Below, piece after piece: positions 1-27,424 of a stretch of 43,744 bases of DNA. The translations under genes and the position numbers were made by a program. The stretch comes from an uncultured Bacteroidota bacterium (GTDB lineage: Bacteria > Bacteroidota > Bacteroidia > 2-12-FULL-35-15): positions 1 through 43,744 of the forward strand of contig CAIXIP010000244.1 in assembly GCA_903919535.1 (NCBI GenBank), given 5' to 3'. Under the pieces are notes generated by a model. That model was not told the DNA's origin and ran no database searches. It was given only the letters and a program-made list of their open reading frames with translations. Positions within the stretch are counted from its first letter, which is position 1. Every line of letters begins with the position of its first letter.

Positions 1-106
1 AGACAACCGCTATACTTTCATCAATCTGTTAATTCTACTACTATCAAAAATACACCATTCCTATACCTTTAACATAATTTCTGAAACTAAATGAACAGCA
101 ATTCAG

Positions 107-114
107 TATATTTG
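107..114 (+). promoter_or_regulatory. candidate -7 box for the TPR gene
   Basis: The octamer TATATTTG fits the Bacteroidota -7 consensus TAnnTTTG and lies 34 bases before the ATG at 149. No good -33 TTTG element is visible at the expected 18-20 base spacing, so this is only a candidate. Confidence 0.4.
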
Positions 115-148
115 AAATTATAATTCGCTTAAATTTTTTAAGGAACAT

Positions 149-1246
149 ATGCCCAAGTTAAAAACACATTATTTCATACTCCTTTTTATTCTACTTTCTG
201 TCAGATTGATAGCTCAGCCAATTGCTGATTCTACCGATGCATCTCTAGCCTATATCAAATCCGGAAAAATAAAATTAGATTCAGCCAAAATTCGTTCAAA
301 AAATAATGATATCAAAACAGCAAATAAATACGATTCTGATGCTATTAAAGATTTCAAAAAGGCAATCAAAATAAATCCAAATACGTATACCCCCTATTAT
401 TTATTGGGAATTGCTCAATCAGGAACATCTGATTATAAAACAGCGATTTCAAGTTTCACTAAAGCTTTAAATGTTGATTCCACATTATGTGACGCCTTTC
501 GTGAACGAGGACTTGCGCAGGTTGCACTTGGTAAAGACAAAGAAGCATTTTCGGATTTTAGTACAGCTTTAGATAAGAATATTGAGGATGCCGAATCGTT
601 CTACCAAAGGGGAATGTTAAAAGCAAAAAAAAGGGACATTACCTCTGCGATGGCCGATTATGCTCAAGCACTTGAATTAAAACCAAATTTCGCAGATGTA
701 TTCCTGAAGCGAGGTATTCTATTTTATAGCGTAAAAAAGGATTATGTGCTGGCATTGAATGACTTTAACAGCCTACTTGAGGTAAACCCCGATAACAATG
801 AAGGGTATTTATGGCGCGGAAAAACCAAATTTAATGGATACGATTATAAAGGTGCCGAAAAAGACCTTAGTAGATATCTAGATTTTGAACCTGAAAATGT
901 GGATGCTTTAATCACACGAGGTGCAGCCAGATTGAGTATCAATGATTATTCAAATGCAGTTCGTGATTTTGATGAGGCTATTAAATTAGAGCCCAAAAAC
1001 TTTATTGCATACATGAATAGAGGAACAGCAAAAGGTGCTATGAAAAACTTTACTGGCGCCTTAGAAGATTTGGATATGGCAATTGAACTGAAATTTGATT
1101 ATTCATCAGCCTATATTAACAGGGCTGCTGTTCGTTTTGCATCCGGTGACAAAAAAGGTGCTTGCAAAGACCTTGAAAAAGCGGATAGCCTTAACAATGA
1201 AAAAGCTTACGAACTAATGAAAAAATATTGCAAAGAATACCAATAA
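149..1246 (+). CDS. secreted tetratricopeptide-repeat protein
   Basis: A 365-residue protein opening with a Sec signal peptide: a basic start, a hydrophobic stretch, and likely cleavage after the Ala-Gln near residue 23. From about residue 65 to 345 it is built of roughly eight 34-residue TPR units, recognisable by repeated patterns such as AIKINPN, ALELKPN, LLEVNPDN and AIKLEPKN. It ends with a short Cys-containing tail (MKKYCKEYQ), common at the end of Bacteroidota TPR proteins. TPRs are protein-binding scaffolds and no catalytic domain is visible, so the partner and process are unknown. It is probably periplasmic or outer-membrane associated. The ATG at 149 follows a good -7 box, and the gene looks like its own transcription unit. 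Confidence 0.85.
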   Translation: MPKLKTHYFILLFILLSVRLIAQPIADSTDASLAYIKSGKIKLDSAKIRSKNNDIKTANKYDSDAIKDFKKAIKINPNTYTPYYLLGIAQSGTSDYKTAISSFTKALNVDSTLCDAFRERGLAQVALGKDKEAFSDFSTALDKNIEDAESFYQRGMLKAKKRDITSAMADYAQALELKPNFADVFLKRGILFYSVKKDYVLALNDFNSLLEVNPDNNEGYLWRGKTKFNGYDYKGAEKDLSRYLDFEPENVDALITRGAARLSINDYSNAVRDFDEAIKLEPKNFIAYMNRGTAKGAMKNFTGALEDLDMAIELKFDYSSAYINRAAVRFASGDKKGACKDLEKADSLNNEKAYELMKKYCKEYQ

Positions 1247-1385
1247 TCGCTCCTGATACTTTATTCTGTCCCACCTTTCTTTCGTAATTTTTTCCGTTTA
1301 TCCTTCCAATAAATGGTATCATCCTAAACTTCTGTATTATTTAAAAATCTTCATTACTTTAGAACTTCAAAAAATAAATTTTTTT

Positions 1386-4300
1386 ATGAGAAAATCAACA
1401 ATGCTCTTATTCGCTTCATTCATTGTTAGCGCTTCAATTAATTCCCAAACTGACCCTGAAAAAGAAAAAAAATGGGACGTATCAAACCCAAAAGGCACTT
1501 TTAAAGAAGTTGAAATAACAACATCTGAAGGCACCTGGATGAATCTTGACGTTAGTCCGGATGGAAAAAGCATTGTATTTGATATGTTGGGTGATATATA
1601 CATTATGCCAGTTACCGGTGGCGAAGCCAAAGTTTTAAGAACGGGATTTCCGTTTGAGGTACAACCCCGTTTTAGTCCGAATGGAAAAAAAATATCCTTT
1701 ACAAGTGATGCTGGCGGTGGCGATAATATCTGGACAATGAATGCCGATGGTTCTGATGCAAAAGCTGTTACAAAAGAAAATTACCGATTACTTAATAACG
1801 CAGTCTGGACTCCCGATGGCAACTATTTAATTGCACGCAAACACTTTTCTTCCACCCGTTCGTTAGGTGCAGGTGAAATGTGGATGTATCATACATCAGG
1901 CGGTGAAGGATTACAGCTTACAGTTAAGAAAAATGTTCAGCAGGATGCCGGAGAGCCTTGTATTTCGCCTGATGGGCATTATTTGTATTACAGCGAAGAT
2001 ATGTATCCGGGTGGAATGTTTTTATATAATAAAGACCCCAATAATCAGATTTATGTAATCAAACGTTATGACCGAATTAAAGGGGAAACGGATATTGTTA
2101 CTGGCGGCCCAGGTGGTGCATTTCGTCCTCAGATTTCCCGTGACGGAAAAACACTGGCATTTATAAAACGTGTTCGGGAAGCTACTGTTTTATATTTACG
2201 TAATCTGGAAACTGGCGAAGAATGGCCTATCTACGATAAGTTAAGCAAGGATCAACAAGAAGCTTGGGCAATATTTGGAGTTTATACCAACTTTAATTGG
2301 TTAGATGCAAAACATATTATTATTTGGGCAAATGGTAAAATCATGAATGTTGATATAGATCAATCTACTGCTTCAGAAATTCCTTTTACGGTAAACGCAA
2401 AACACAAAATTATTGATGCATTGAAATTCCGTCAGGAAGTTGCTCCGAGTAAATTCACCGTCAAAGTAATTCGAAATGCTACCACTTCTCCTGATGAAAA
2501 AACGTTGATCTTTAATTCTGTTGGTTATTTGTGGAAAAAAGACTTGCCAAATGGAACTCCTGTGCGATTAACTTCATCAATTGATTTTGAATTCGAACCT
2601 TCGTTTTCTCCTTCCGGAGAAGAAATTGTTTATACTACATGGAACGATGAAAACATGGGTGCTATTTACAAGTTGAATTTGAAAAGCAAAAAGCAAATAA
2701 AAATTACAGCTGATAAAGGGATTTATCGTACTCCACGTTTTTCTGCTGATGCGAAGGAAATCGTTTATCAAAAAGAAGATGGAAATGATCATATGGGCTT
2801 TTCATTTTGTGTTGAACCCGGAATTTACCTGATCGAAAATAAGGAAAATGCAAAACCTAAATTAGTGAGCAAAGAAGGTGAAAACCCGCGATTTCTTGCT
2901 GATGGAAGAATTTTCTTTCAAACCGATGATGGAGAAAGCAAAACCTATAAAAGTATTTCAATTGAAGGAAAAGATCTTCGGACCAATTTCACTTCTAAAT
3001 ATGCAACGTCAGTTGTACCTAGTCCTGATGGCAACTGGATAGCCTTTATTGAATTATTTAAAGCATATGTTGCAGCATTCCCAGAGACAGGAAAAGCAAT
3101 TGAACTAAGTTCTAAAACAGAAGCATTGCCGTTAACACAAATTGCGAAAGATGCCGGATTAAATTTGAATTGGAGTATCGACAGCAAAAAAATTCATTGG
3201 ACATATGGAGATCAATATTTTACAGATAATATTAAGGACCGATTTACTTTCTTGGAAGGTTCGCCTGATAAAATAGCTGCAATGGATAGCGTTGGAATAA
3301 AGATTGGCTTAGAATTACCTTTTGATAAACCCAACGGTAAACTTGCATTGAAAGGCGCCCGCATCATTTCCATGAAAGGCGATGAGGTGATAGAAAATGG
3401 AACAATCATTATCAATGAAAATATTATTGAAGAAATTGGCAAAGCTGATGAAATAAAAATCCCTTCCGATGCGAAAATAATTGATTGTACCGGTAAAACC
3501 ATAATGCCAGGAATGGTTGATGTCCACTCACATTTAAGTACATGGCGTTTAGGTCCTTCTCCGCAAAAGCAATGGAGCTATTATGCAAATCTGGCTTATG
3601 GCGTTACAACAACACACGATCCATCATCTGTTTCGGAAATGGTATTTTCTCAATCAGAAATGGTTAAAACAGGATATATGGTTGGTCCGCGTATATTTTC
3701 AACAGGAACGATTTTATATGGAGCTGAAGGGGATTTTAAAGCTGTGATAAATAGCTTAGATGATGCCCGCTCAGCTATTGCACGAACAAAAGCTTTTGGT
3801 GCATTTTCTGTAAAAAGTTATAATCAGCCTCGAAGAGAACAGCGTCAGCAAGTAATACAAGCAGCACGTGATTTGCAAATAATGGTTGTTCCAGAAGGAG
3901 GATCTACTTTTTTTCATAATATGAGTGAAATTATTGATGGACATACGGGTATTGAACATAATATTCCAATTGCAGACCTTAGTAATGATGTAATTAAATT
4001 ATGGGGTGCAAGTAAAACAGGCTATACTCCCACTCTGATTGTTACTTATGGTGCCATTAATGGTGAAGATTACTGGTATCAGAAAACTAATGTTTTGGAA
4101 AATAAACGTTTGCTGAACTTTTATCCTCGTTCAATTATCGATTCTCGTTCCCGCCATCGCACTATGATACCTGATGCAGAGTATGAAAATGGATTTATCG
4201 AAGTTTCAAAATCGTGCAAAAAATTAACGGATGCAGGTGTAAAAGTAAATTTAGGTTCTCATGGACAAATTCAAGGTATTGGTGCACATTGGGAATTATG

Positions 4301-4646
4301 GATGTTACAGATGGGTGGACTAACTCCATTACAAGCAATACGTTGTGCAACAATGAATGGAGCTGAATATATTGGAATGGGAGATCAAATAGGATCATTG
4401 GAGAAAGGTAAATTAGCCGACCTTGTTGTGATGGATAAAAACCCATTAGATAATATTCGCAATACAGAAAGCATCAAATACGTGATTGTAAATGGCCGTT
4501 TATACGATGCCGAAACAATGAACCAGATTGGTAATTATGATGTTAAAAGAAGTAAATTCTATTGGGAAAATTCAAAAGCAAATAATAACTTCCCTTGGCA
4601 TCAGGAAACAAACAGCTTTATGCAAGGATGTGATCTGGGAGATTAA
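1386..4646 (+). CDS. TolB-like beta-propeller / amidohydrolase two-domain protein
   Basis: A 1086-residue exported protein with a signal peptide over about residues 1-21. The first 600 or so residues hold repeated PD40/WD40-like blades, marked by recurring motifs such as SPDGKSIVF, SPNGKKISF and SPSGEEIVY. From about residue 690 to 1070 it is an amidohydrolase-superfamily domain. It has the metal motif His714-Ser-His716 (DVHSH), later histidines at 853 and 857 (GHTGIEH), and a C-terminal LADLVVMDKNPL strand typical of imidazolonepropionase/cytosine-deaminase-like enzymes. Where many amidohydrolases carry a metal-binding Asp, this one reads LGSHGQ. The family is probably a periplasmic metal-dependent hydrolase, but the substrate cannot be told from sequence. 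The length is as usual for this architecture. Confidence 0.85.
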   Translation: MRKSTMLLFASFIVSASINSQTDPEKEKKWDVSNPKGTFKEVEITTSEGTWMNLDVSPDGKSIVFDMLGDIYIMPVTGGEAKVLRTGFPFEVQPRFSPNGKKISFTSDAGGGDNIWTMNADGSDAKAVTKENYRLLNNAVWTPDGNYLIARKHFSSTRSLGAGEMWMYHTSGGEGLQLTVKKNVQQDAGEPCISPDGHYLYYSEDMYPGGMFLYNKDPNNQIYVIKRYDRIKGETDIVTGGPGGAFRPQISRDGKTLAFIKRVREATVLYLRNLETGEEWPIYDKLSKDQQEAWAIFGVYTNFNWLDAKHIIIWANGKIMNVDIDQSTASEIPFTVNAKHKIIDALKFRQEVAPSKFTVKVIRNATTSPDEKTLIFNSVGYLWKKDLPNGTPVRLTSSIDFEFEPSFSPSGEEIVYTTWNDENMGAIYKLNLKSKKQIKITADKGIYRTPRFSADAKEIVYQKEDGNDHMGFSFCVEPGIYLIENKENAKPKLVSKEGENPRFLADGRIFFQTDDGESKTYKSISIEGKDLRTNFTSKYATSVVPSPDGNWIAFIELFKAYVAAFPETGKAIELSSKTEALPLTQIAKDAGLNLNWSIDSKKIHWTYGDQYFTDNIKDRFTFLEGSPDKIAAMDSVGIKIGLELPFDKPNGKLALKGARIISMKGDEVIENGTIIINENIIEEIGKADEIKIPSDAKIIDCTGKTIMPGMVDVHSHLSTWRLGPSPQKQWSYYANLAYGVTTTHDPSSVSEMVFSQSEMVKTGYMVGPRIFSTGTILYGAEGDFKAVINSLDDARSAIARTKAFGAFSVKSYNQPRREQRQQVIQAARDLQIMVVPEGGSTFFHNMSEIIDGHTGIEHNIPIADLSNDVIKLWGASKTGYTPTLIVTYGAINGEDYWYQKTNVLENKRLLNFYPRSIIDSRSRHRTMIPDAEYENGFIEVSKSCKKLTDAGVKVNLGSHGQIQGIGAHWELWMLQMGGLTPLQAIRCATMNGAEYIGMGDQIGSLEKGKLADLVVMDKNPLDNIRNTESIKYVIVNGRLYDAETMNQIGNYDVKRSKFYWENSKANNNFPWHQETNSFMQGCDLGD

Positions 4647-4695
4647 AAATTATCTCGGTGAATAATATTTTATTTAGAATTTAAACCATAAAAAA

Positions 4696-4959
4696 ATGGA
4701 AAAATCATTTAAAAATTGTCAAAGCTGCGGAATGCCATTAAAAAAAGATCCAAAAGGAGGTTCTACAAATGCTGATGGAAGTAAAAATGTAACGTATTGT
4801 AGTTACTGTTTTGAAAGCGGCAAGTTTCTCCAACCTGATGTTACAGCTGAGGAAATGCAAAAATTTGTAAAAGGGAAATTAAAAGAAATGGGATTTCCTG
4901 GGTTTTTGGCCGGATTTTTCACAATGGGAATTCCGAAATTGGAACGCTGGAAAAAATAA
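4696..4959 (+). CDS. small zinc-ribbon protein
   Basis: An 87-residue cytoplasmic protein with two CxxC pairs, CQSCG near residue 8 and CSYC near residue 35. They would bind one zinc ion as a zinc ribbon, in the manner of the putative zinc-ribbon family (PF12674 type). The second half, with EEMQKFVKGKLKEMGF, is helical and has no recognisable catalytic motif. It begins 49 bases after the amidohydrolase stop and could share its transcript. A strong bidirectional terminator follows. The biochemical role is unknown. Confidence 0.75.
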   Translation: MEKSFKNCQSCGMPLKKDPKGGSTNADGSKNVTYCSYCFESGKFLQPDVTAEEMQKFVKGKLKEMGFPGFLAGFFTMGIPKLERWKK

Positions 4960-4991
4960 TTTATTTAATATCATGACTTGTAACACTTTAT

Positions 4992-5025
4992 AAAAAACGG
5001 AGCATAATTATATGCTCCGTTTTTT
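4992..5025. terminator. bidirectional intrinsic terminator
   Basis: Arms at 4992-5006 and 5011-5025 pair perfectly over 15 bp around an ATTA loop. An A-run leads and a T-run follows, so the hairpin can stop transcription from both the zinc-ribbon gene (+) and the fused aminotransferase/T9SS gene (-), whose stop codon overlaps its edge. Confidence 0.9.
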
Positions 5026-8000
5026 AATATATAACAAGTTTTTTGCTCGCTACCCCCTTTGAATTTATTAAGGAAAGTAAGTAAAGTCCTTTTCCGAAAG
5101 GTGAAAGATCAACTGCGCTTTCCTCACGGCCCAGAAAAGATGAGTATTTTCGGGAGAAAAGAAGTCTTCCAACAACATCAGTGATTTCAATAGTTATATC
5201 TGATTTTATTTTTGTTTGAAAATTCAAATTAACAATTCCATTGCTAGGGTTCGGGTACACAGAATAAATAATTCCGTTATCTGAAATTTCATCCATGCCA
5301 AGAAAAGGAGATGATGTTGAATAACAGCCCGTAACAGAATCGGTTTGGCGAAGAGTAATAGATGCTCCAAAATACGGTATAACGAAATATGACCCTATTG
5401 CACCAACAACAATAACATTATTTACATACCATTGATTTCCAAATAAATAACTTGAGTATAGTGTATCGTTACTTAAAGTAATTGTTGGAGTTGTAGGTAA
5501 TGGTGCAACAAAAATATTCACTGTGTCGGATGACACAGCGCAACCAAAAGCATCGGTAACAGTTACTGAACGAAAACCTGTTGAATTTACTCCCAAAACG
5601 GGTGATGTTTGATTTCCAGGATGCCATAAATAATAATTACCACTTGATGTAGATAGCGAAACAGTTTGTCCTTGGCAAATAGTGTCGTTTTTGTTGAGAA
5701 TCACAATAGGTTTTACTTGCGGACTCACAGCGATATAGCTATATTTTGTAACAGAATCTGTTCCAAAAGCATTCGTAACAACCAATGTTGTATTATAATA
5801 GGTTCCAGGAGTATTGTATGTAACAATTGGGTTTTGCAAATTAGATGTGGCAGGTGTTCCGCCAGGAAAAGTCCAACTCCATGAAATAGGCGAATTTAAT
5901 GTACTGTCAGAATATTGAACATTAAAACCAGGACAACCACTCAACGTATCTCCGGCAAAATTAGCAAATGGTAAATTGGATAAAGGATCATGAATTTTGG
6001 TTTGCCATAACCCGCGACCGAAACTTGCAGCCCGTAATTTATTACTTCCGTAGTGAATTTCTAATTCATCAATAACAACATTTGGCAAGCCATTTGAAAA
6101 AGGCATCCATGAATTTATATTATTATCAAAATAATAAACGCCAACATCGGTTCCAATATAAATACCATCATTTGTTCCTGTTTGATTTACGATACAATTA
6201 ACTGGGATATTTAGCAAACTGCCTGATATGTTTGTCCAGGTAGTTCCACCGTCAGCAGTTTTATATACTTTATTTCCAGCAGAATAGCCTGAACGAGTTA
6301 TCCAAATTTTATTAGGATCGGTTGTACATATTTCAATATCCGAAATAGCTGAGCCGCCATCAACGGGATAAATAACTATCGTCCAAGTTGAACCACCATC
6401 AATTGTTTTATAAATAGTAGTAGCTGTTGCTGCATAAATGTAGAGAGGATTAGATTTAGCAACTTTCAGAATTGTTAAGCCAATGGAATTAAAATTTGAA
6501 ATTTGAGTCCAGGAATTCCCTCTACTTGTCGATTTCCAAACATTTTCAAAACCTGCATAAATGGTTGAAGAGTTAATTGGGTCTTGCATCCAAGGAGTTA
6601 TCCATTGGCCTGGTTCAGAAATATTATTTACAATATCATTAAAATTTCCACCACCATTTGAAGAACGCTGTAAAGATCCATTTTGAGAGGCACCATACAT
6701 GTAACTTGGGTTACTCCAATCAATAAAACATTCCATCCCATCACCACCAAGAACCCTATCAAATCCTCCTGCATTGTATAAGCTACAACCATTATCCTGC
6801 CAGCCCTGAATTACCATATTTGCATTTGTAACCGAATTACCTAATCGATACATTTCACCAATTTGCAATCCATCACTTTTATCTTGCCATGAATTTCCTG
6901 CATCAGTAGTTACGTAAATTCCACCATCACATACAGCATAAGTTGCTGAACCGTCTGCACGATAAACTAAATTATGTATATCAGCATGGACGTATGGCAA
7001 TCCGCCTGCACCATACCAATGAGCACTGCAGTTCCAACTACTTCCTGCGTCATTTGATTTCCAAACATTTACCCCGCCAACCATAATTTCATTTTCATCA
7101 GTTGGAGAAGCCGCAAAAGAAAGTGTGTACCAACCTTGTCCTCCTGAATCATTTCCATTTGAATCCCATCCCAATAAATTCGGGAAGTCGCTTTGCATAG
7201 CAAAAGATGCCCCTGAGTTAGTAGAAAGATATACCCCTTTATAACCACTATCAGAACTTGCCGAATATAAAACATAAACGTAATTTGGATTTGCAGGTGT
7301 TACAGCAATAGCCATTCGGTTAACAGTTGAATTAGAAGGTAAACCACTTGGAGTTGATACAAAAGTAAATGATGTTCCTGTATTTATTGACCTATAAAAT
7401 CCATTGGAAGAACCCGCGTAGATAATAGACGGATCTCCTGGTTTTAGTTCAAGATCTTTTACATTGTTTGTATTTAAAACCTTTACCCACGTGCCCCCCG
7501 CATCAATTGATTTAAAAACACCAATACTGGTAGCTGTAAAAATCATATTATGATTATTAGGATTTATGATCACTCTTCCAATGCTTCTTGCTTGAATTGT
7601 CATCCAATTTAACCCTGTAATATTCCAGGTTGCTCCACCATCAGTTGATTTTAAAATCCCGACTCCATAGGTATCGCTTGCATCAAGATCACCTGTTCCG
7701 ATATACATTATATTCGTATTTGTGGGATCTATGGCAATATCATTCACTCCAAGGGTTGGTAAATTATCTGTATTAGTTGACCAGGTTAAGCCTGAATTAG
7801 TTGATTTCCATAATCCACCTGCTGGAGCTCCAGCCCAAATAATATTTTGATCTATCGGATCAAATGCAACACAATTTAATCTACCTGCTCCTCCGCCATT
7901 AGCAGGAACATTAAATGCTCCCATTGGCGACCAGTTTCCACCAACCATACGAGAACTTTTATTCGCATGATTTTCTATTATTTTTTGTAACTCTTCACTT

Positions 8001-9259
8001 CCATTGTTAAGTAAATGCCTATTTCCTGAAGGATAAACACGAGGAGCAACATATTGTTCCCAACGTTTGTATAATAGATATCCTTCATTTTCTTTTTCAG
8101 AATTATTGTTGAAACCAAAAAAACTTTTGAATTTCTCTTTTTTCTCCTCTTTTTTAGCAAAACAAAAGCGTAAGGCTTTGTTATCAACTAATTCATGATA
8201 AAATACGGACATTGGAATAGATGCTATTCCAAATTCTTTTGTTAAACGAATTGCATATTCAGTATCTTTTTCTTTGCTAATACCTTTGTAATTCAGCAAT
8301 TGAAAATAAGTTCCGTTTGCTGGTATGAATTCAAATTTTGAACCTTTCAATAGGTCAATAAAATAATCACGTTTCTTTTGATAAAAACTTCCGAGACTTA
8401 AATAATTTTCTTTGTTTTTTAGGTATTCGGCTAAGGCATGTTGGATAGGAGTGTTAACAGAAAACACTAGGAACTGATGTACTTTACGAAATTCGGCCAT
8501 TAAATTTTCCGGTGCAATACAATATCCCATTTTCCAACCCGTTGTATGAAATGTTTTACCAAATGAAGAAATAATAAAACTGCGTTCAGCAAGTTTAGGA
8601 AAACGAGCCACACTCTGGTGTTCGAATCCATCAAAAATGATGTGTTCGTATACTTCATCACTAACAATTACAATTTCGGTATTCCTGGTTAGTTTTTCTA
8701 GTTTGGCCATGTCGCTTGCCGTCATTATACTTCCGGTAGGATTATGTGGCGTATTAATGATAATCATCTTTGTTCGATGATTTATCACTTTTTTAACCTC
8801 TTCCCAATCAATTGAATAGTTTGGGGCTTTCAGTTGCAAATAAATAGTTTTTCCTCCGTTCAATTCAATTGCAGGTTGATAGCAATCATATGCGGGTTCA
8901 AATATGATTACTTCATCTCCTTCGTGAACTATCGCTGAAATAGCTGTAAAAATTGCTTGAGTGCCACCAGCTGTAATTGTAATTTCAGTTTCGGGATTAT
9001 ATTTTGCACTGTATAATCCTTCTGTTTTTTCAGCAATTACTTCTCTAAGGCTCATTAAACCAGCCATTGGAGCATATTGGTTATTCCCATTAAGCATATA
9101 TTTATTTACAAGTCCGATCAATTCATCGCTGCAGCTAAAATCAGGAAATCCTTGTGAAAGGTTTATAGCATTGTTATCGGCCGCCAGTTTGCTCATTATG
9201 GTAAAAATGGTGGTGCCTACATTCGGTAATTTGCTTTTGATAAGACTAGGATACTTCAT
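5024..9259 (-). CDS. fused frame: PLP aminotransferase + T9SS-type BNR/PKD secreted protein
   Basis: One 1411-codon frame without a stop joins two unrelated proteins. Residues 1 to about 370 are a class I/II aminotransferase close to the methionine/kynurenine aminotransferases (YbdL type). They contain NTPHNPTG, SDEVYEH and the PLP lysine Lys235 in SSFGKTFHTTGWK, and break off after LRFCFAKKEE, some 10-15 residues short of the usual C-terminus. From about residue 372 the sequence is the mature part of a secreted surface protein: a YKRWE..APRVYPSGN block, sortilin/BNR-like repeats (about 435-1085), a PKD domain (about 1096-1183) and a type A T9SS sorting domain from about 1330 (YPNPSNG ... KKLVIY). 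The secreted half has lost its signal peptide, so as written it could not be exported. The cause may be a real deletion fusing neighbours or an assembly error. The ATG at 9259 gives the normal aminotransferase start. Confidence 0.8.
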   Translation of the reverse strand: MKYPSLIKSKLPNVGTTIFTIMSKLAADNNAINLSQGFPDFSCSDELIGLVNKYMLNGNNQYAPMAGLMSLREVIAEKTEGLYSAKYNPETEITITAGGTQAIFTAISAIVHEGDEVIIFEPAYDCYQPAIELNGGKTIYLQLKAPNYSIDWEEVKKVINHRTKMIIINTPHNPTGSIMTASDMAKLEKLTRNTEIVIVSDEVYEHIIFDGFEHQSVARFPKLAERSFIISSFGKTFHTTGWKMGYCIAPENLMAEFRKVHQFLVFSVNTPIQHALAEYLKNKENYLSLGSFYQKKRDYFIDLLKGSKFEFIPANGTYFQLLNYKGISKEKDTEYAIRLTKEFGIASIPMSVFYHELVDNKALRFCFAKKEEKKEKFKSFFGFNNNSEKENEGYLLYKRWEQYVAPRVYPSGNRHLLNNGSEELQKIIENHANKSSRMVGGNWSPMGAFNVPANGGGAGRLNCVAFDPIDQNIIWAGAPAGGLWKSTNSGLTWSTNTDNLPTLGVNDIAIDPTNTNIMYIGTGDLDASDTYGVGILKSTDGGATWNITGLNWMTIQARSIGRVIINPNNHNMIFTATSIGVFKSIDAGGTWVKVLNTNNVKDLELKPGDPSIIYAGSSNGFYRSINTGTSFTFVSTPSGLPSNSTVNRMAIAVTPANPNYVYVLYSASSDSGYKGVYLSTNSGASFAMQSDFPNLLGWDSNGNDSGGQGWYTLSFAASPTDENEIMVGGVNVWKSNDAGSSWNCSAHWYGAGGLPYVHADIHNLVYRADGSATYAVCDGGIYVTTDAGNSWQDKSDGLQIGEMYRLGNSVTNANMVIQGWQDNGCSLYNAGGFDRVLGGDGMECFIDWSNPSYMYGASQNGSLQRSSNGGGNFNDIVNNISEPGQWITPWMQDPINSSTIYAGFENVWKSTSRGNSWTQISNFNSIGLTILKVAKSNPLYIYAATATTIYKTIDGGSTWTIVIYPVDGGSAISDIEICTTDPNKIWITRSGYSAGNKVYKTADGGTTWTNISGSLLNIPVNCIVNQTGTNDGIYIGTDVGVYYFDNNINSWMPFSNGLPNVVIDELEIHYGSNKLRAASFGRGLWQTKIHDPLSNLPFANFAGDTLSGCPGFNVQYSDSTLNSPISWSWTFPGGTPATSNLQNPIVTYNTPGTYYNTTLVVTNAFGTDSVTKYSYIAVSPQVKPIVILNKNDTICQGQTVSLSTSSGNYYLWHPGNQTSPVLGVNSTGFRSVTVTDAFGCAVSSDTVNIFVAPLPTTPTITLSNDTLYSSYLFGNQWYVNNVIVVGAIGSYFVIPYFGASITLRQTDSVTGCYSTSSPFLGMDEISDNGIIYSVYPNPSNGIVNLNFQTKIKSDITIEITDVVGRLLFSRKYSSFLGREESAVDLSPFGKGLYLLSLINSKGVASKKLVIY

Positions 9260-9359
9260 ATATGAAATTTTCAGAAAAATGGATAAATACGAAAATAAAA
9301 TTACATGTTATTGCCGAATTGTTGCTAAATGTTGAAAACAAAAACCTTTTTTTATAATT

Positions 9360-9385
9360 TATTTTTGCGATTTGGACTATTTTTG
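9360..9385 (+). promoter_or_regulatory. two candidate -7 boxes before the prolyl isomerase gene
   Basis: TATTTTTG occurs twice, at 9360-9367 and 9378-9385, both matching TAnnTTTG. They lie 49 and 31 bases before the ATG at 9417. No convincing -33 partner is visible for either, so which one is used, if any, is open. Confidence 0.35.
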
Positions 9386-9416
9386 AAGCCAATTATTAAT
9401 TTAAAAACATTGTAAA

Positions 9417-9923
9417 ATGATCATTGAAAAAAACACTGTAGTTTCTGTGAACTACTTATTATCCTTAAAAGAATCAGGAGAAAAAGTGGAGCAGACTAGC
9501 AAAGAAAATCCGTTTGTGTTTATTTTTGGCACAGGTGGCTTATTAGAAGATTTTGAAGCTAATCTTCAAGGAAAAAAAATTGGAGATTCATTCGATTTTT
9601 TTGTTGACCACCAACGTGGTTATGGTGTTCGTGATGAGCAGCATTTAGTTATGATTCCTATCGAAGCTTTTTTAGGTGAAGACGGATCATTTGATAAAGA
9701 AAATGTGAAAATTGGAGTAACCCTTCCAATGGTTGATAACGAAGGAAATCGTTTATATGGAACAGTTATGGAAATTTCTACTGAACATGTAAAGATGGAT
9801 TTTAATCATCCTTTAGCAGGAAAAGATCTACATTTTAAAGGTGAAGTTCTTGAAGTACGCAAAGCTACAGAAGATGAACTAGCTCATGGTCATGTTCATG
9901 GTGAGCATGGACATCATCATTAA
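9417..9923 (+). CDS. SlyD-like FKBP peptidyl-prolyl cis-trans isomerase
   Basis: A 168-residue cytoplasmic protein with the SlyD arrangement. A split FKBP domain starts with KNTVVSVNYLLSLKESGE, followed by FGTGGLLEDFEANLQGKKIGD. An insert-in-flap chaperone domain covers about residues 70-125, and the second FKBP strand contains HPLAGKDLHFKGEVLEV. The tail is histidine-rich (HGHVHGEHGHHH), as in SlyD proteins that bind nickel or other metals. The expected role is prolyl isomerisation and chaperone activity, perhaps with metal handling. It is followed by its own terminator. Assignment to the SlyD group is secure, while the metal role is inference from the tail. Confidence 0.9.
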   Translation: MIIEKNTVVSVNYLLSLKESGEKVEQTSKENPFVFIFGTGGLLEDFEANLQGKKIGDSFDFFVDHQRGYGVRDEQHLVMIPIEAFLGEDGSFDKENVKIGVTLPMVDNEGNRLYGTVMEISTEHVKMDFNHPLAGKDLHFKGEVLEVRKATEDELAHGHVHGEHGHHH

Positions 9924-9943
9924 TAGTTTTATAGGTGATTTAG

Positions 9944-9984
9944 CAATTGGCAATTTGTGAAATACATGTTGCCAATTGTTTTTT
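9944..9984 (+). terminator. intrinsic terminator after the prolyl isomerase
   Basis: CAATTGGCAA at 9944-9953 pairs with TTGCCAATTG at 9969-9978, a 10 bp perfect stem with a 15-base loop, followed by six T (9979-9984). It starts 20 bases after the stop codon. Confidence 0.8.
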
Positions 9985-10013
9985 GATTCCATACCGAACT
10001 GTTAATTTTAAAA

Positions 10014-10430
10014 ATGAACTTACATCTTAAATCACCTTCTGATAAGGAATTTATGCTTATCCAAGCATACATCTTAGAATTCGAGTTAGATAGTCGTGCT
10101 TTACAAAAAGAACAATTCACAGCCGCTTATAGAGATAATGAATTAGTTGGATTTGGACGTATTCGCAAACACGATGACTGCATCGAACTTTGTTCATTAG
10201 GAGTTATTACTCAGCACCGAAGAAAGGGAATTGGAAAAGCAATTGTGAAGGAACTTGTTCACAGAGCAGAGCAGTCAATTTATCTTGTGTGTATAATTCC
10301 CGAATTTTTTACTCCTTTGAACTTTAGAATCGTTAGCGAATTCCCGGATTCAATCAATAAAAAAATAAATTATTGCAAGGAGGAGCTGATTGTTCCCGAA
10401 AGCTATGTTGCAATGCTTTTTCAGAAATAA
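10014..10430 (+). CDS. GNAT-family N-acetyltransferase
   Basis: A 138-residue protein with the GNAT fold. The acetyl-CoA pyrophosphate-binding loop is visible in QHRRKGIGKAIVKEL (about residues 72-86), preceded by the beta-4 strand CIELCSLGVI. The N-terminal part has ELVGFGRI, the usual beta-2/beta-3 hairpin. The acceptor substrate cannot be predicted. The stop is only eight bases from the end of the convergent CHAT gene, with no clear terminator between them. Confidence 0.8.
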   Translation: MNLHLKSPSDKEFMLIQAYILEFELDSRALQKEQFTAAYRDNELVGFGRIRKHDDCIELCSLGVITQHRRKGIGKAIVKELVHRAEQSIYLVCIIPEFFTPLNFRIVSEFPDSINKKINYCKEELIVPESYVAMLFQK

Positions 10431-10438
10431 TTCCGTTA

Positions 10439-13273
10439 TTAACTACCAATTAAAATAAATGCTCCCCAATAAAAAGGTTCTTTAAATTTCATTTTTAATT
10501 GCTTCTGAGCTTTCAGAAAAGCGTCTTGTTTATTACCCGAAAGCATATAAAATTTATAGAAGTTAGTCATTAGTTCCATTGTAGCATCGTCACTTACTTG
10601 CCATAAACTCATAATTATTGCTTTTGCTCCGGCAACTTGAAAAGCTCGTTGTAAACCATATACACCTTCACCTGCTTTTATATCACCCAGTCCAGTTTCG
10701 CAAGCACTAAGTATTACCAATTGCGTTTTATCCAACGAAAGATTCATTGTTTCATATGCCGTTAATATCCCATTATCCTTATTGGAAAGATCAGAAGTTC
10801 CATCAAACACTTTTTCGCAATTAGCAAGTAATAATCCGGAGCGATGAAGCGGATTGTTTTTTGCTTTTGATGTTTCGATCCCTAATACTTTTTCATCTTC
10901 TATTGCACTTGTATTTGCCAAAAAGAAGCCGTGTGTGGCAATATGCAATATGCTCGATTTAGCTAATTTAACATTTGTTTCAGAAGCATCATTTCCTTCG
11001 AAAAGCGTAGTCGAATAACCATTTGTTTTTAGGATTGGATTAATATTTTCTACTTCCAGTTTTGTTCCAGGTAAGGATGGAATAACTTCTTCGCCACCAT
11101 AATTTGGAAATCCGAATAAAGAAGCTGTTTTAGGAAAGTCTTTTTTCAGAACAGTGTTTTTTAATTCTAATACATCTTTCGAATTGCTGACCAAAATGAT
11201 GTTTTTCGAATCAATTAAATATTTTCCGGTGCCATCTTTTAATGTGTTTAAGCTAATTTGATTATAAACACCATCCAATGAAACGTAAATTGTTTTTTTA
11301 TTAATAATAGCGTTATCAATAGTCGACCAATATTTTGAATACGATTCGTTATCAGGTTTAATATTTTTAATGCTGTTTCTGTAAAATTTTATTGCGGAAG
11401 TTTCGAGTTCTGATCCATTTTTGTTTATAAGCAATTCGGGTTGCGTAGCGTTTTTAGTCAATACTAATGTGGCATAATAAACTTCATTTGTAAAAGAGGT
11501 ATTGAATTTTTTGAATTCAATGATATCTACAATTGCTTCATCGTCATTGAGAGTTTTTGTGAGGTCAGTAAAAAGAATCGTGCTCCCTGAATAACCTATT
11601 TTAAAAGCATTTGACTGGGAGGATAATTTTTTTTCCAGGTCATTTGTTTCTCTTTCAAGAGAATCTAAATTTACTTTTTCATCAGCCAGTTCATCTTTTG
11701 ATAATGTATAAAGTCTTGCTAATTGCTCCTTTTGATCCAACCACTTCGAATAATTATTTTTTAATTCTTCATTGCCACCGCTCAAGATTGCATTTTTTAC
11801 TTTGTTAGTGGAGTTAAGTAACAGAGCTTTTGTCTTCAATTGGTAATTGAACATTTTACCTTTAAGTTCAGGATTGCTTGAATATGCATCAGCAACAAAT
11901 GAATTAAAACGTTGTAAGCGAGGCGAAATTTTATTCCAAAATGTAGCTTTTTCACTTTCACTCATTGGCGCAAAATAAGCATCTATATAGTTCATCGTTG
12001 CATCCATGACTTTTATATAATTGATTGCAGCAACATCAATTTTGTTGCTTTGCCATTGCACAATAGCTAAATCTTCTAATGATTTGATATAATCCGGATG
12101 AGTATTACTCAGTAACTCGCTTCGCATTTTTACTGCATTAGTAAGTACTATTTCGGCTTCAGGCAAACGATTGTTTATTCGGTAGAAGTTTCCTAGATCA
12201 ACCATTGTTGCAACTGTTGCGGGGTGCTTCTCACCAAATTTGCGTTTGTAAATTTCAAATGCATCTTTTAACAATGCTTCCACCTCGCTTGTTTTTCCCA
12301 TTTGCAGATACAAGGAAGCTAACCCTCTTTTGAGATAAGCATAATCAGGATGATTTTTTCCTAGTTTTTTTTCTTTAAGTTTAAGCGCATTTAAATAAAT
12401 GGTTTCTGCTTCTGTAAACCTTTCCATATCCTGATAAAGCAATGCCAGGTTAATTGTAAGTCGGATGTGGTTGCTGGAAGATTCTTTTAATTTTTCTTTG
12501 GTAATGCTTAAAACCTGTGTCATTAATTTTTCTGCATCTTCATCACGACCAAGAAGTTGTAATAACATTGCTTTGTTATTTAAAGCGATTGCATATGGAA
12601 TTGAATTTTTCCCAAGTGTATTTGAATTGTCTTCAATAGCTTTATTTATAAGCTCTTCCGCTTCATTATACTTCCCTTCGTCTTTTAGTAGAACCGCTTT
12701 ATTATTTTCGGATGCTGCATAAGCTGCAGATCTTTCATCTAAATCTTTTCGCAACGCTAAAGCAAGGTCAGAATATTTTTCTGCATTTATATAACGACCT
12801 GTTGTTTGGTAAAGTAGCGCTAAATTGCTTTCTGTTAGGGCATAATCCGATGTTTTTTGTGCGCCATTTTTTTCATAGATAAACATTGCTTGTTTAAAAG
12901 AAAATTCGGCAGTATGAAATTTGTTACTTGCAAAAGCAATTTCTCCTGAATTATTAAAGTTTTTTGCTCGGTCAACTGTTAAGTCAGCATCACGGTTGGT
13001 GGAAACTTTATACCCTTCAATAAAAGCATTTTTTACCCTGTCGGATTTTTCTTTTGTTTCAAATAGACCCGCATTGTCGCTGAATGAAATGGCATAGTTG
13101 AAATTTGATTCATCAAATTCTTTTCGTGAATCATCCATTTTGTTTTCACCGGCTTCTTTAGCTTTTTTCAAAGCATCATCTTTGGCTTTATTTAATGCGC
13201 CTTTAAAATCTATTTGTGAAAAAGCATTTAAAAACAGGGTTAATGAGAATATTAATAGGAATGATTTTTTCAT
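10439..13273 (-). CDS. secreted TPR-CHAT protein (caspase-like protease candidate)
   Basis: A 944-residue protein with a signal peptide (about residues 1-19, ending NAFSQ). TPR repeats of the kinesin-light-chain kind follow (about 105-430, with units like ALNNKAMLLQLLGRDEDAEKL). Next comes a charged, coiled-coil-prone stretch (about 500-560) and then a C-terminal CHAT domain (about 650-944). The CHAT catalytic pair is present: His781 in IATHGFF and Cys858 in LSACETGLGD, followed by GVYGLQRAFQVAGA. CHAT is a clan CD (caspase/separase-like) peptidase fold. The intact dyad suggests activity, but the substrate is unknown. The signal peptide places it outside the cytoplasm, unlike CRISPR-linked (Csx29) or gasdermin-linked CHAT proteases, and neither partner type is present here. 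Confidence 0.87.
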   Translation of the reverse strand: MKKSFLLIFSLTLFLNAFSQIDFKGALNKAKDDALKKAKEAGENKMDDSRKEFDESNFNYAISFSDNAGLFETKEKSDRVKNAFIEGYKVSTNRDADLTVDRAKNFNNSGEIAFASNKFHTAEFSFKQAMFIYEKNGAQKTSDYALTESNLALLYQTTGRYINAEKYSDLALALRKDLDERSAAYAASENNKAVLLKDEGKYNEAEELINKAIEDNSNTLGKNSIPYAIALNNKAMLLQLLGRDEDAEKLMTQVLSITKEKLKESSSNHIRLTINLALLYQDMERFTEAETIYLNALKLKEKKLGKNHPDYAYLKRGLASLYLQMGKTSEVEALLKDAFEIYKRKFGEKHPATVATMVDLGNFYRINNRLPEAEIVLTNAVKMRSELLSNTHPDYIKSLEDLAIVQWQSNKIDVAAINYIKVMDATMNYIDAYFAPMSESEKATFWNKISPRLQRFNSFVADAYSSNPELKGKMFNYQLKTKALLLNSTNKVKNAILSGGNEELKNNYSKWLDQKEQLARLYTLSKDELADEKVNLDSLERETNDLEKKLSSQSNAFKIGYSGSTILFTDLTKTLNDDEAIVDIIEFKKFNTSFTNEVYYATLVLTKNATQPELLINKNGSELETSAIKFYRNSIKNIKPDNESYSKYWSTIDNAIINKKTIYVSLDGVYNQISLNTLKDGTGKYLIDSKNIILVSNSKDVLELKNTVLKKDFPKTASLFGFPNYGGEEVIPSLPGTKLEVENINPILKTNGYSTTLFEGNDASETNVKLAKSSILHIATHGFFLANTSAIEDEKVLGIETSKAKNNPLHRSGLLLANCEKVFDGTSDLSNKDNGILTAYETMNLSLDKTQLVILSACETGLGDIKAGEGVYGLQRAFQVAGAKAIIMSLWQVSDDATMELMTNFYKFYMLSGNKQDAFLKAQKQLKMKFKEPFYWGAFILIGS

Positions 13274-13348
13274 ATTTTTTGTCTTTCTAAAATCTATATC
13301 GAAGGTATAAAAAAGGGCGATTCGATACTTCTTTTTATAATTAAAAAC

Positions 13349-13356
13349 TATATTTG
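13349..13356 (+). promoter_or_regulatory. candidate -7 box for the HEAT-repeat gene
   Basis: TATATTTG matches TAnnTTTG and lies 51 bases before the ATG at 13408, in the divergent spacer between the CHAT and HEAT genes. The -33 region is poor (TTCG, 24 bases upstream). Confidence 0.35.
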
Positions 13357-13407
13357 AGATAGCATTTATGGTGATTTTTTAAGTTCAAACAGCAGGTTAA
13401 GTTTATC

Positions 13408-14163
13408 ATGGGGTTTTACGAATTAGATAAGGAGCAACGGCAAATTCTGGTTGACAAGATCAATCAGAATATTCTTTCTAAAATTATCAAAGGGCAGTCA
13501 ACTTTAATTTCAGATTATTTTTCTGATGAGGATACTTATGTTCGAAAAACAGCCTATATAGCGCTTGGTCGAATATACAAGGAGAATAAAGATCTAAAAA
13601 ATAATATTTTAAATTTTCTTGATACTCAAATAAAGTCAAAGAATGAAAAGATAAGACAAACCGTAATTAACGCTGCTGGTGAAATAGGGAAATTTGATTT
13701 TGAAGCAATTGAACAATTTATGAAAACAGGACTTTTTGATGAGCATCATTCTGTTCGGAATGCAGTGATAGGTTCGATCAAAAAGATGAGTGAGAAAAAT
13801 CCTAAACCAACGCTTGCATTCGCAAAACAATTTCTACACCATGAAGATAAAGAGATCCGTAGAGAAATTTGTCATGGAATAGAACTTCGTGGAAGAACAC
13901 ATCCAAAAGATGTATTGCCTCTTTTAAAAGAATTGCAAAATGACAAAACAGTAAGAGTTCGAAAAACATTAATACATGTTTTAGGGCAAATTGCTTATAA
14001 AAAGGGGTGCTTAGAAATAGTAATAGCTGATCTCAAACAATGGGAAAATAAAGAATTGGTAGCTAAAGCAATTGAAGAGATTATTGATGTTCATGATCGA
14101 TATATAAATTTCTCCGAAAAGACTCAAAAGCAGGCCATCGATTATATCGAGAAAAATTATTAG
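13408..14163 (+). CDS. HEAT-repeat protein
   Basis: A 251-residue protein made almost wholly of paired helices of the HEAT/PBS-lyase type. Examples are DEDTYVRKTAYIALGRIYKE, KIRQTVINAAGEIGK, HHSVRNAVIGSIKKM, DKEIRREICHGIELR and TVRVRKTLIHVLGQIA. There is no signal peptide, so it is probably cytoplasmic. HEAT solenoids act as binding scaffolds. A few relatives are DNA-alkylation-repair (AlkD-like) proteins, but nothing here identifies that activity. The gene converges on the deacetylase with a gap of three bases. Function is unassigned. Confidence 0.75.
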   Translation: MGFYELDKEQRQILVDKINQNILSKIIKGQSTLISDYFSDEDTYVRKTAYIALGRIYKENKDLKNNILNFLDTQIKSKNEKIRQTVINAAGEIGKFDFEAIEQFMKTGLFDEHHSVRNAVIGSIKKMSEKNPKPTLAFAKQFLHHEDKEIRREICHGIELRGRTHPKDVLPLLKELQNDKTVRVRKTLIHVLGQIAYKKGCLEIVIADLKQWENKELVAKAIEEIIDVHDRYINFSEKTQKQAIDYIEKNY

Positions 14164-14166
14164 AAT

Positions 14167-14778
14167 TTAGTTGAAGATATCAAACTCAAATCCTTTTTCT
14201 TTTGCATATTCAATAAAACGCGGCAAGGCATATTCCATGTTCTTTTGGGCTTTAATACTATCATGAAAAACTATGACAGAACCATTTCTTACATTATCAA
14301 TTACATTTTTCAAACATTTTTCGGGAGATGTTTTTTTATCAAAATCTCCACTCAGAACATCCCACATAATAATTTTGAATTTTGAATTTAGAATAGCAAA
14401 TTGTGATTTTTTTAATTTGCCATATGGAGGACGAAACAAATTTGTACTTACATAGTTTGCACATTTTTCAATGTTCTGAATGTAATTTTTTGAATGTGTA
14501 TTCCATCCTTTTAGATGGTTGAACGTATGGTTTCCAATCGCATGATTTTCATCTACTATCCTTTGATAAACGGCCGTATTCTTTTGTATGTTTTCTCCTA
14601 CGCAAAAAAAAGTTGCTTTGATGTTATGTTGTTTTAGTATGTCTAAAACCCAAGGGGTAATATCAGGAACGGGCCCATCATCAAATGTTAGATAGATTTT
14701 TTTGTCTGTTTTGTCCATTCGCCAAATCGCCTTTTGGAAAAGCTTTCGAAAAAGATATGGAGGCCGAACTAAGTACAA
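14167..14778 (-). CDS. polysaccharide deacetylase (NodB homology domain)
   Basis: A 203-residue protein containing all the NodB motifs: LTFDDGP (Asp33, Asp34), the zinc-binding HxxxH in GNHTFNH, RPPYG, WDVLSGDFD and the catalytic-histidine strand VIVFHDS. It should hydrolyse N-acetyl groups from a polysaccharide such as peptidoglycan or an exopolysaccharide. No signal peptide is visible. The chosen start is TTG at 14778: no ATG or GTG lies between it and the in-frame stop upstream. The residues it adds (MYLVRPPYLFRKLF) resemble the usual N-terminus of Bacteroidota members. The alternative is the internal ATG at residue 21, which would still keep the catalytic domain. Confidence 0.85.
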   Translation of the reverse strand: MYLVRPPYLFRKLFQKAIWRMDKTDKKIYLTFDDGPVPDITPWVLDILKQHNIKATFFCVGENIQKNTAVYQRIVDENHAIGNHTFNHLKGWNTHSKNYIQNIEKCANYVSTNLFRPPYGKLKKSQFAILNSKFKIIMWDVLSGDFDKKTSPEKCLKNVIDNVRNGSVIVFHDSIKAQKNMEYALPRFIEYAKEKGFEFDIFN

Positions 14779-27177: not shown

Positions 27178-27295
27178 ATAATTTTTACTAGTCAATCAAT
27201 AAATAAATTTCTTTGATTACCCCATCGTTTTATCCTCCTATAGAAAAGGAACGTATTACGCCAGGTGAATATGCAAAATGTAGATTGCGGATGTT

Positions 27296-27399
27296 ACCCT
27301 GAGTTTGTCGAAGGGTGCGGGAAAGCATACACACATGTTCCGAAAAACTCAACATGGCCGCGCTTAGTTCGGTTTGGTCATTTCGATATGAGTCGAAAT
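27296..27399. repeat. cluster of three small intergenic inverted repeats
   Basis: Three inverted repeats follow each other: ACCCT/AGGGT (27296-27316, enclosing GAGTTTGTCGA), CATGTT/AACATG (27334-27356) and ATTTCGA/TCGAAAT (27380-27399). The first closely resembles the CCCTGAGCTTGTCGAAGGG-type short repeat found scattered between genes in many bacterial genomes. The stretch is richer in G and C than its surroundings and has no open frame. It lies between the ends of asd and the convergent acyltransferase gene. Confidence 0.55.
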
Positions 27400-27424
27400 T
27401 TTGGTTAGGTAATAAATTTTAAAC

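Follow-up and report, generated by a model that had tools for sequence, protein, structure and literature searches.

The long open frame on contig C244 that joins an aminotransferase to a T9SS cargo protein is, with high probability, the product of a chimeric contig that brought together two ordinary, separate genes of one bacterium. The window analyzed here is this contig in its entirety (43,744 bases), taken from a 3.87-Mb draft genome of 358 contigs with 97.95% completeness. An earlier note had claimed a single 1411-codon frame at 5024-9259, and this frame is indeed present as sequence in C244, on the minus strand, starting with ATG and encoding 1411 amino acids. While the frame was confirmed within C244, the contig join conflicts with C62 and C248, two further contigs of this genome. 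The features concerned are as follows.

5024 to 8144, minus strand: T9SS cargo body (BNR/sortilin-like repeats, PKD, and type A sorting domain) without its first ~46 residues, defined by Pfam, TIGR04183, and the orthologue in the relative G016
8145 to 8155, minus strand: probable chimeric joint, AAAAAAGAGGA, delimited by the divergence of C62 past 8145, the start of the G016 cargo alignment at 8155, and codon comparison
8145 to 8223, minus strand: 79 bases identical to the first bases of C62, another contig of this genome, found by sequence comparison
8156 to 9259, minus strand: aminotransferase body (methionine aminotransferase family, PRK09082) without its last ~14 residues, which lie on C62, defined by the NF006569 score, identity to G016:C107, and collinearity

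Residues 1 to ~366 of the fused frame constitute a methionine-type class I/II aminotransferase, and the remainder is a BNR/PKD protein ending in a type A T9SS tail. Pfam placed Aminotran_1_2 at residues 31-372 and Por_Secre_tail at residues 1334-1410, and it also matched Sortilin-Vps10 (BNR-type) and PKD_4 in the frame. Scored alone, the aminotransferase part of the window reached 564.7 bits with NCBIfam NF006569 (cut-off, 420). Its body is 95% identical to the counterpart on contig C107 of the closest relative, G016, and window positions 8145-14169 are collinear with that locus. The next best aminotransferase match elsewhere in the genome was only 31% identical, revealing no second close copy. 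Within the collinear region, positions 10439-13273 encode a 944-amino-acid protein with, by eye, tetratricopeptide repeats and a CHAT-like protease domain, and this gene lies near the aminotransferase in G016 and in G011, too.

The cargo body is 78% identical to a 1089-amino-acid, signal-peptide-bearing orthologue in G016, and window positions 5021-8155 match the cargo gene on G016:C4. The type A T9SS sorting domain that had been noted earlier was recovered at its C terminus by both models; PF18962 scored 50.2 (cut-off, 27) and TIGR04183 scored 40 bits (cut-off, 23).

The missing end of the aminotransferase was found on C62. The first 79 bases of this contig are identical to window positions 8223 to 8145 (minus strand), after which it diverges, GCTAAAAAAGAGGA being followed by AACACTTGAAAAAGC on C62 and by GAAAAAAGAGAAATTC in the window. 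After the divergence point, C62 encodes a normal aminotransferase end, KKEETLEKAAEILNRI, closed by a stop codon. By comparison with a relative whose protein ends in KKEETLEKAAGILCKI, the window copy lacks ~14 residues, in agreement with the loss of the last 10-15 residues claimed previously. Five bases past the stop codon, an amidohydrolase of the PRK10438 family begins on C62; this native neighbor of the aminotransferase scored above its family cut-off (NF007757), and two more genes come after it, in the gene order of G016:C107. Judged by these sequences, C62 completes the aminotransferase. The most fitting assignment for the enzyme is a methionine/glutamine-type transaminase adjoining an omega-amidase-like hydrolase, both activities being those suggested by family membership. 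The pairing of glutamine transaminase with omega-amidase is known from methionine salvage, in which hydrolysis of ketoglutaramate by omega-amidase renders glutamine transamination irreversible (PMC6302742), and because of this irreversibility the two neighboring genes would make ordinary metabolic sense as a pair.

The other displaced end lies on C248. Read on the minus strand, this contig ends with ATGCTACGTAAATC...TATTCTCAAGATTGGGT, which encodes MLRKSILLLTLVFSFSLISYSQDWV, the putative signal-peptide region of the cargo, and it breaks off within the 5′ end that the window copy is missing; its ATG and Sec-like N terminus were recognized by eye and through homology with the G016 cargo. About 46 residues, signal peptide included, are missing from the window copy, matching the earlier figure of 40-50, and no N-terminal signal peptide is present in the window frame. 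C248 also carries GNAT, glutamine-amidotransferase (trpG-like), and glycosyltransferase genes, all of which precede the cargo in G016. Comparison with G016 further indicated that the assembly lacks ~64 bases of the cargo gene, those separating C248 from the joint. Very probably, then, C248 completes the cargo, the link to the window being drawn through homology to relatives.

Among the genes upstream of the cargo, C248 has one more than G016. This extra gene (L049:216-2549), flanked by the GNAT gene and the start of the cargo, encodes a 777-amino-acid protein with, by eye, tetratricopeptide repeats and a SpoIIE-like phosphatase domain. Beyond the opposite end of the cargo, window positions 1-5023 gave no match in the compared cargo flanks of relatives; nor did the 1086-amino-acid, secreted-looking protein encoded there at 1386-4646, in which TolB-like repeats and an amidohydrolase domain were discerned by eye.

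The matches to G016:C107 and G016:C4 meet on window positions 8145-8155. The joint AAAAAAGAGGA is an exact match to the aminotransferase gene and has a single difference from the cargo gene of the closest relative (AAAAAAGAAGA). In codons, the aminotransferase on C62 reads GCT AAA AAA GAG GAA and the G016 cargo reads TGG AAA AAA GAA GAA, such that the joint specifies Lys-Lys-Glu-Glu in both genes and in the same phase. A join at these codons therefore keeps the frame open with no need for selection. No more than 11 bases are shared, as measured against the G016 cargo, because the native cargo sequence just upstream of the joint in this genome falls in the unassembled gap. Such a stretch is short for a de Bruijn-graph join, and a chimeric read or a gap-filling error must therefore be assumed. 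To see whether 79 bases could be the k-mer length of the assembler, the ends of 83 contigs were compared for exact overlaps; besides that of C62 with the window there was a single one, of 83 bases, between the 3′ ends of L054 and L077 (contigs C4 and C249), in opposite orientation.

In same-genus genomes, the aminotransferase is a separate open frame of ~385-445 codons, and the cargo is a separate open frame of ~1010-1127 codons, the shortest frames being cut by contig ends. The expectation of two separate adjacent genes was thus borne out for separateness and failed for adjacency, as the genes lay on different contigs in 20/20 same-genus genomes for which both were listed. In G011, which is assembled in large pieces, one gene is on a 520-kb contig, 32.6 kb from its nearer end, and the other is on a 626-kb contig, 66.7 kb from its nearer end, which puts the two at least ~99 kb apart. 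These data bear on the proposal that a deletion fused two neighboring minus-strand genes, leaving the cargo tail as dead weight on the enzyme. Such an event would fit the shared strand of the two genes in the contig and their in-frame join, but they are not neighbors in any relative examined, and the DNA that should have been lost is still found on C62 and C248, which is refuting unless these contigs represent another strain. We regard a deletion between neighbors as ruled out by the surviving gene ends with their own neighbors on C62 and C248, and its probability as negligible.

The same fusion was also sought in other genomes, as had been suggested, and the junction appeared in no second one. 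It occurred in 0 of the 59 relatives searched; a degenerate junction pattern allowing up to 3 mismatches hit 1 of 395 genomes of the phylum, namely that of the window itself (0 of the other 394); and the pattern had no exact match in genome_contigs, a collection that may not include the record of the window itself. A functional moonlighting fusion, a cytosolic aminotransferase carrying a selected BNR/PKD tail, found no support in these searches and is exceedingly improbable. A near-complete catalytic domain and a complete sorting domain do share one frame, but this arrangement is unique to the contig, and the last residues of the enzyme are replaced. Moreover, its N terminus carries no export signal, whereas T9SS substrates bear a Sec signal peptide (PMC12618676), and the Sec-like N terminus of the cargo itself lies on C248.

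A separate observation from the comparison with relatives concerned window positions 27262-27424, an intergenic-type repeat. Stretches ~74-82% identical to it adjoin both the cargo gene of G016 (L028:8551-8677) and its aminotransferase locus (L029:4772-4896), and it may be a palindromic repeat dispersed in the genus.

A real rearrangement, by inversion or translocation at the microhomology in part of the population, would leave C62 and C248 as contigs from cells with the intact arrangement, and it would yield a cytosolic aminotransferase with a tail of ~1045 residues from a cell-surface protein. The join is, after all, present in the contig; the A/G-rich microhomology could serve a biological break as well, and the intact aminotransferase end on C62 coexists with the join. 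Nevertheless, we consider this origin unlikely: the join was seen in a single 358-contig draft, with the junction in no related genome, the reciprocal product, in which the start of the cargo would run into the end of the aminotransferase, was not observed, and each of the displaced ends falls exactly at a contig break, at position 1 of C62 and position 1 of C248.

The chimeric contig accounts for all of the observations. In this explanation, one locus would comprise the aminotransferase and the omega-amidase-like gene, and an unlinked locus elsewhere would hold the signal-peptide-bearing T9SS cargo gene, running from C248 over the ~64-base gap into the window. The two would have been joined at the A/G-rich stretch during library preparation or assembly, by a chimeric read or a graph mis-join, and the same-phase Lys-Lys-Glu-Glu at the false joint would keep a single open frame. 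The join thus probably arose in the library or the assembly and not in cells. The earlier note had offered an assembly collapse as one reading, and an assembly error is supported, although it would be a mis-join of two distant loci, as indicated by C62, C248, and the separate loci of relatives, and not a collapse between neighbors. No independent genome among those searched has the junction, and the true aminotransferase end and the cargo start are both in the genome of C244 itself.

The case illustrates how a false joint, if the stretch common to both genes specifies identical residues in one codon phase, can produce an extended frame that passes for a multidomain protein. The gene record should be split, and surveys of domain architecture should not count the C244 frame as a T9SS fusion. 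A literature search combining chimeric contigs with gene fusions found none.

Compared with known systems, the enzyme half resembles PRK09082/NF006569 in scoring far above the cut-off, and its C62 neighbor resembles PRK10438/NF007757 in scoring above the cut-off, but in the window the false join takes the place of that neighbor and of the final ~14 residues. The cargo half is like other T9SS type A cargo (TIGR04183/PF18962) in its C-terminal sorting domain and in having full-length orthologues in same-genus genomes; the window copy differs in being without a signal peptide, as its 5′ end is on another contig. Finally, short-read metagenome assembly is documented to generate chimeric contigs (PMC3100316). 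Like these, C244 unites sequence from two loci, and the displaced pieces are left where other contigs end; unlike them, it draws both of its parts from a single genome and has a joint that happens to keep the reading frame.
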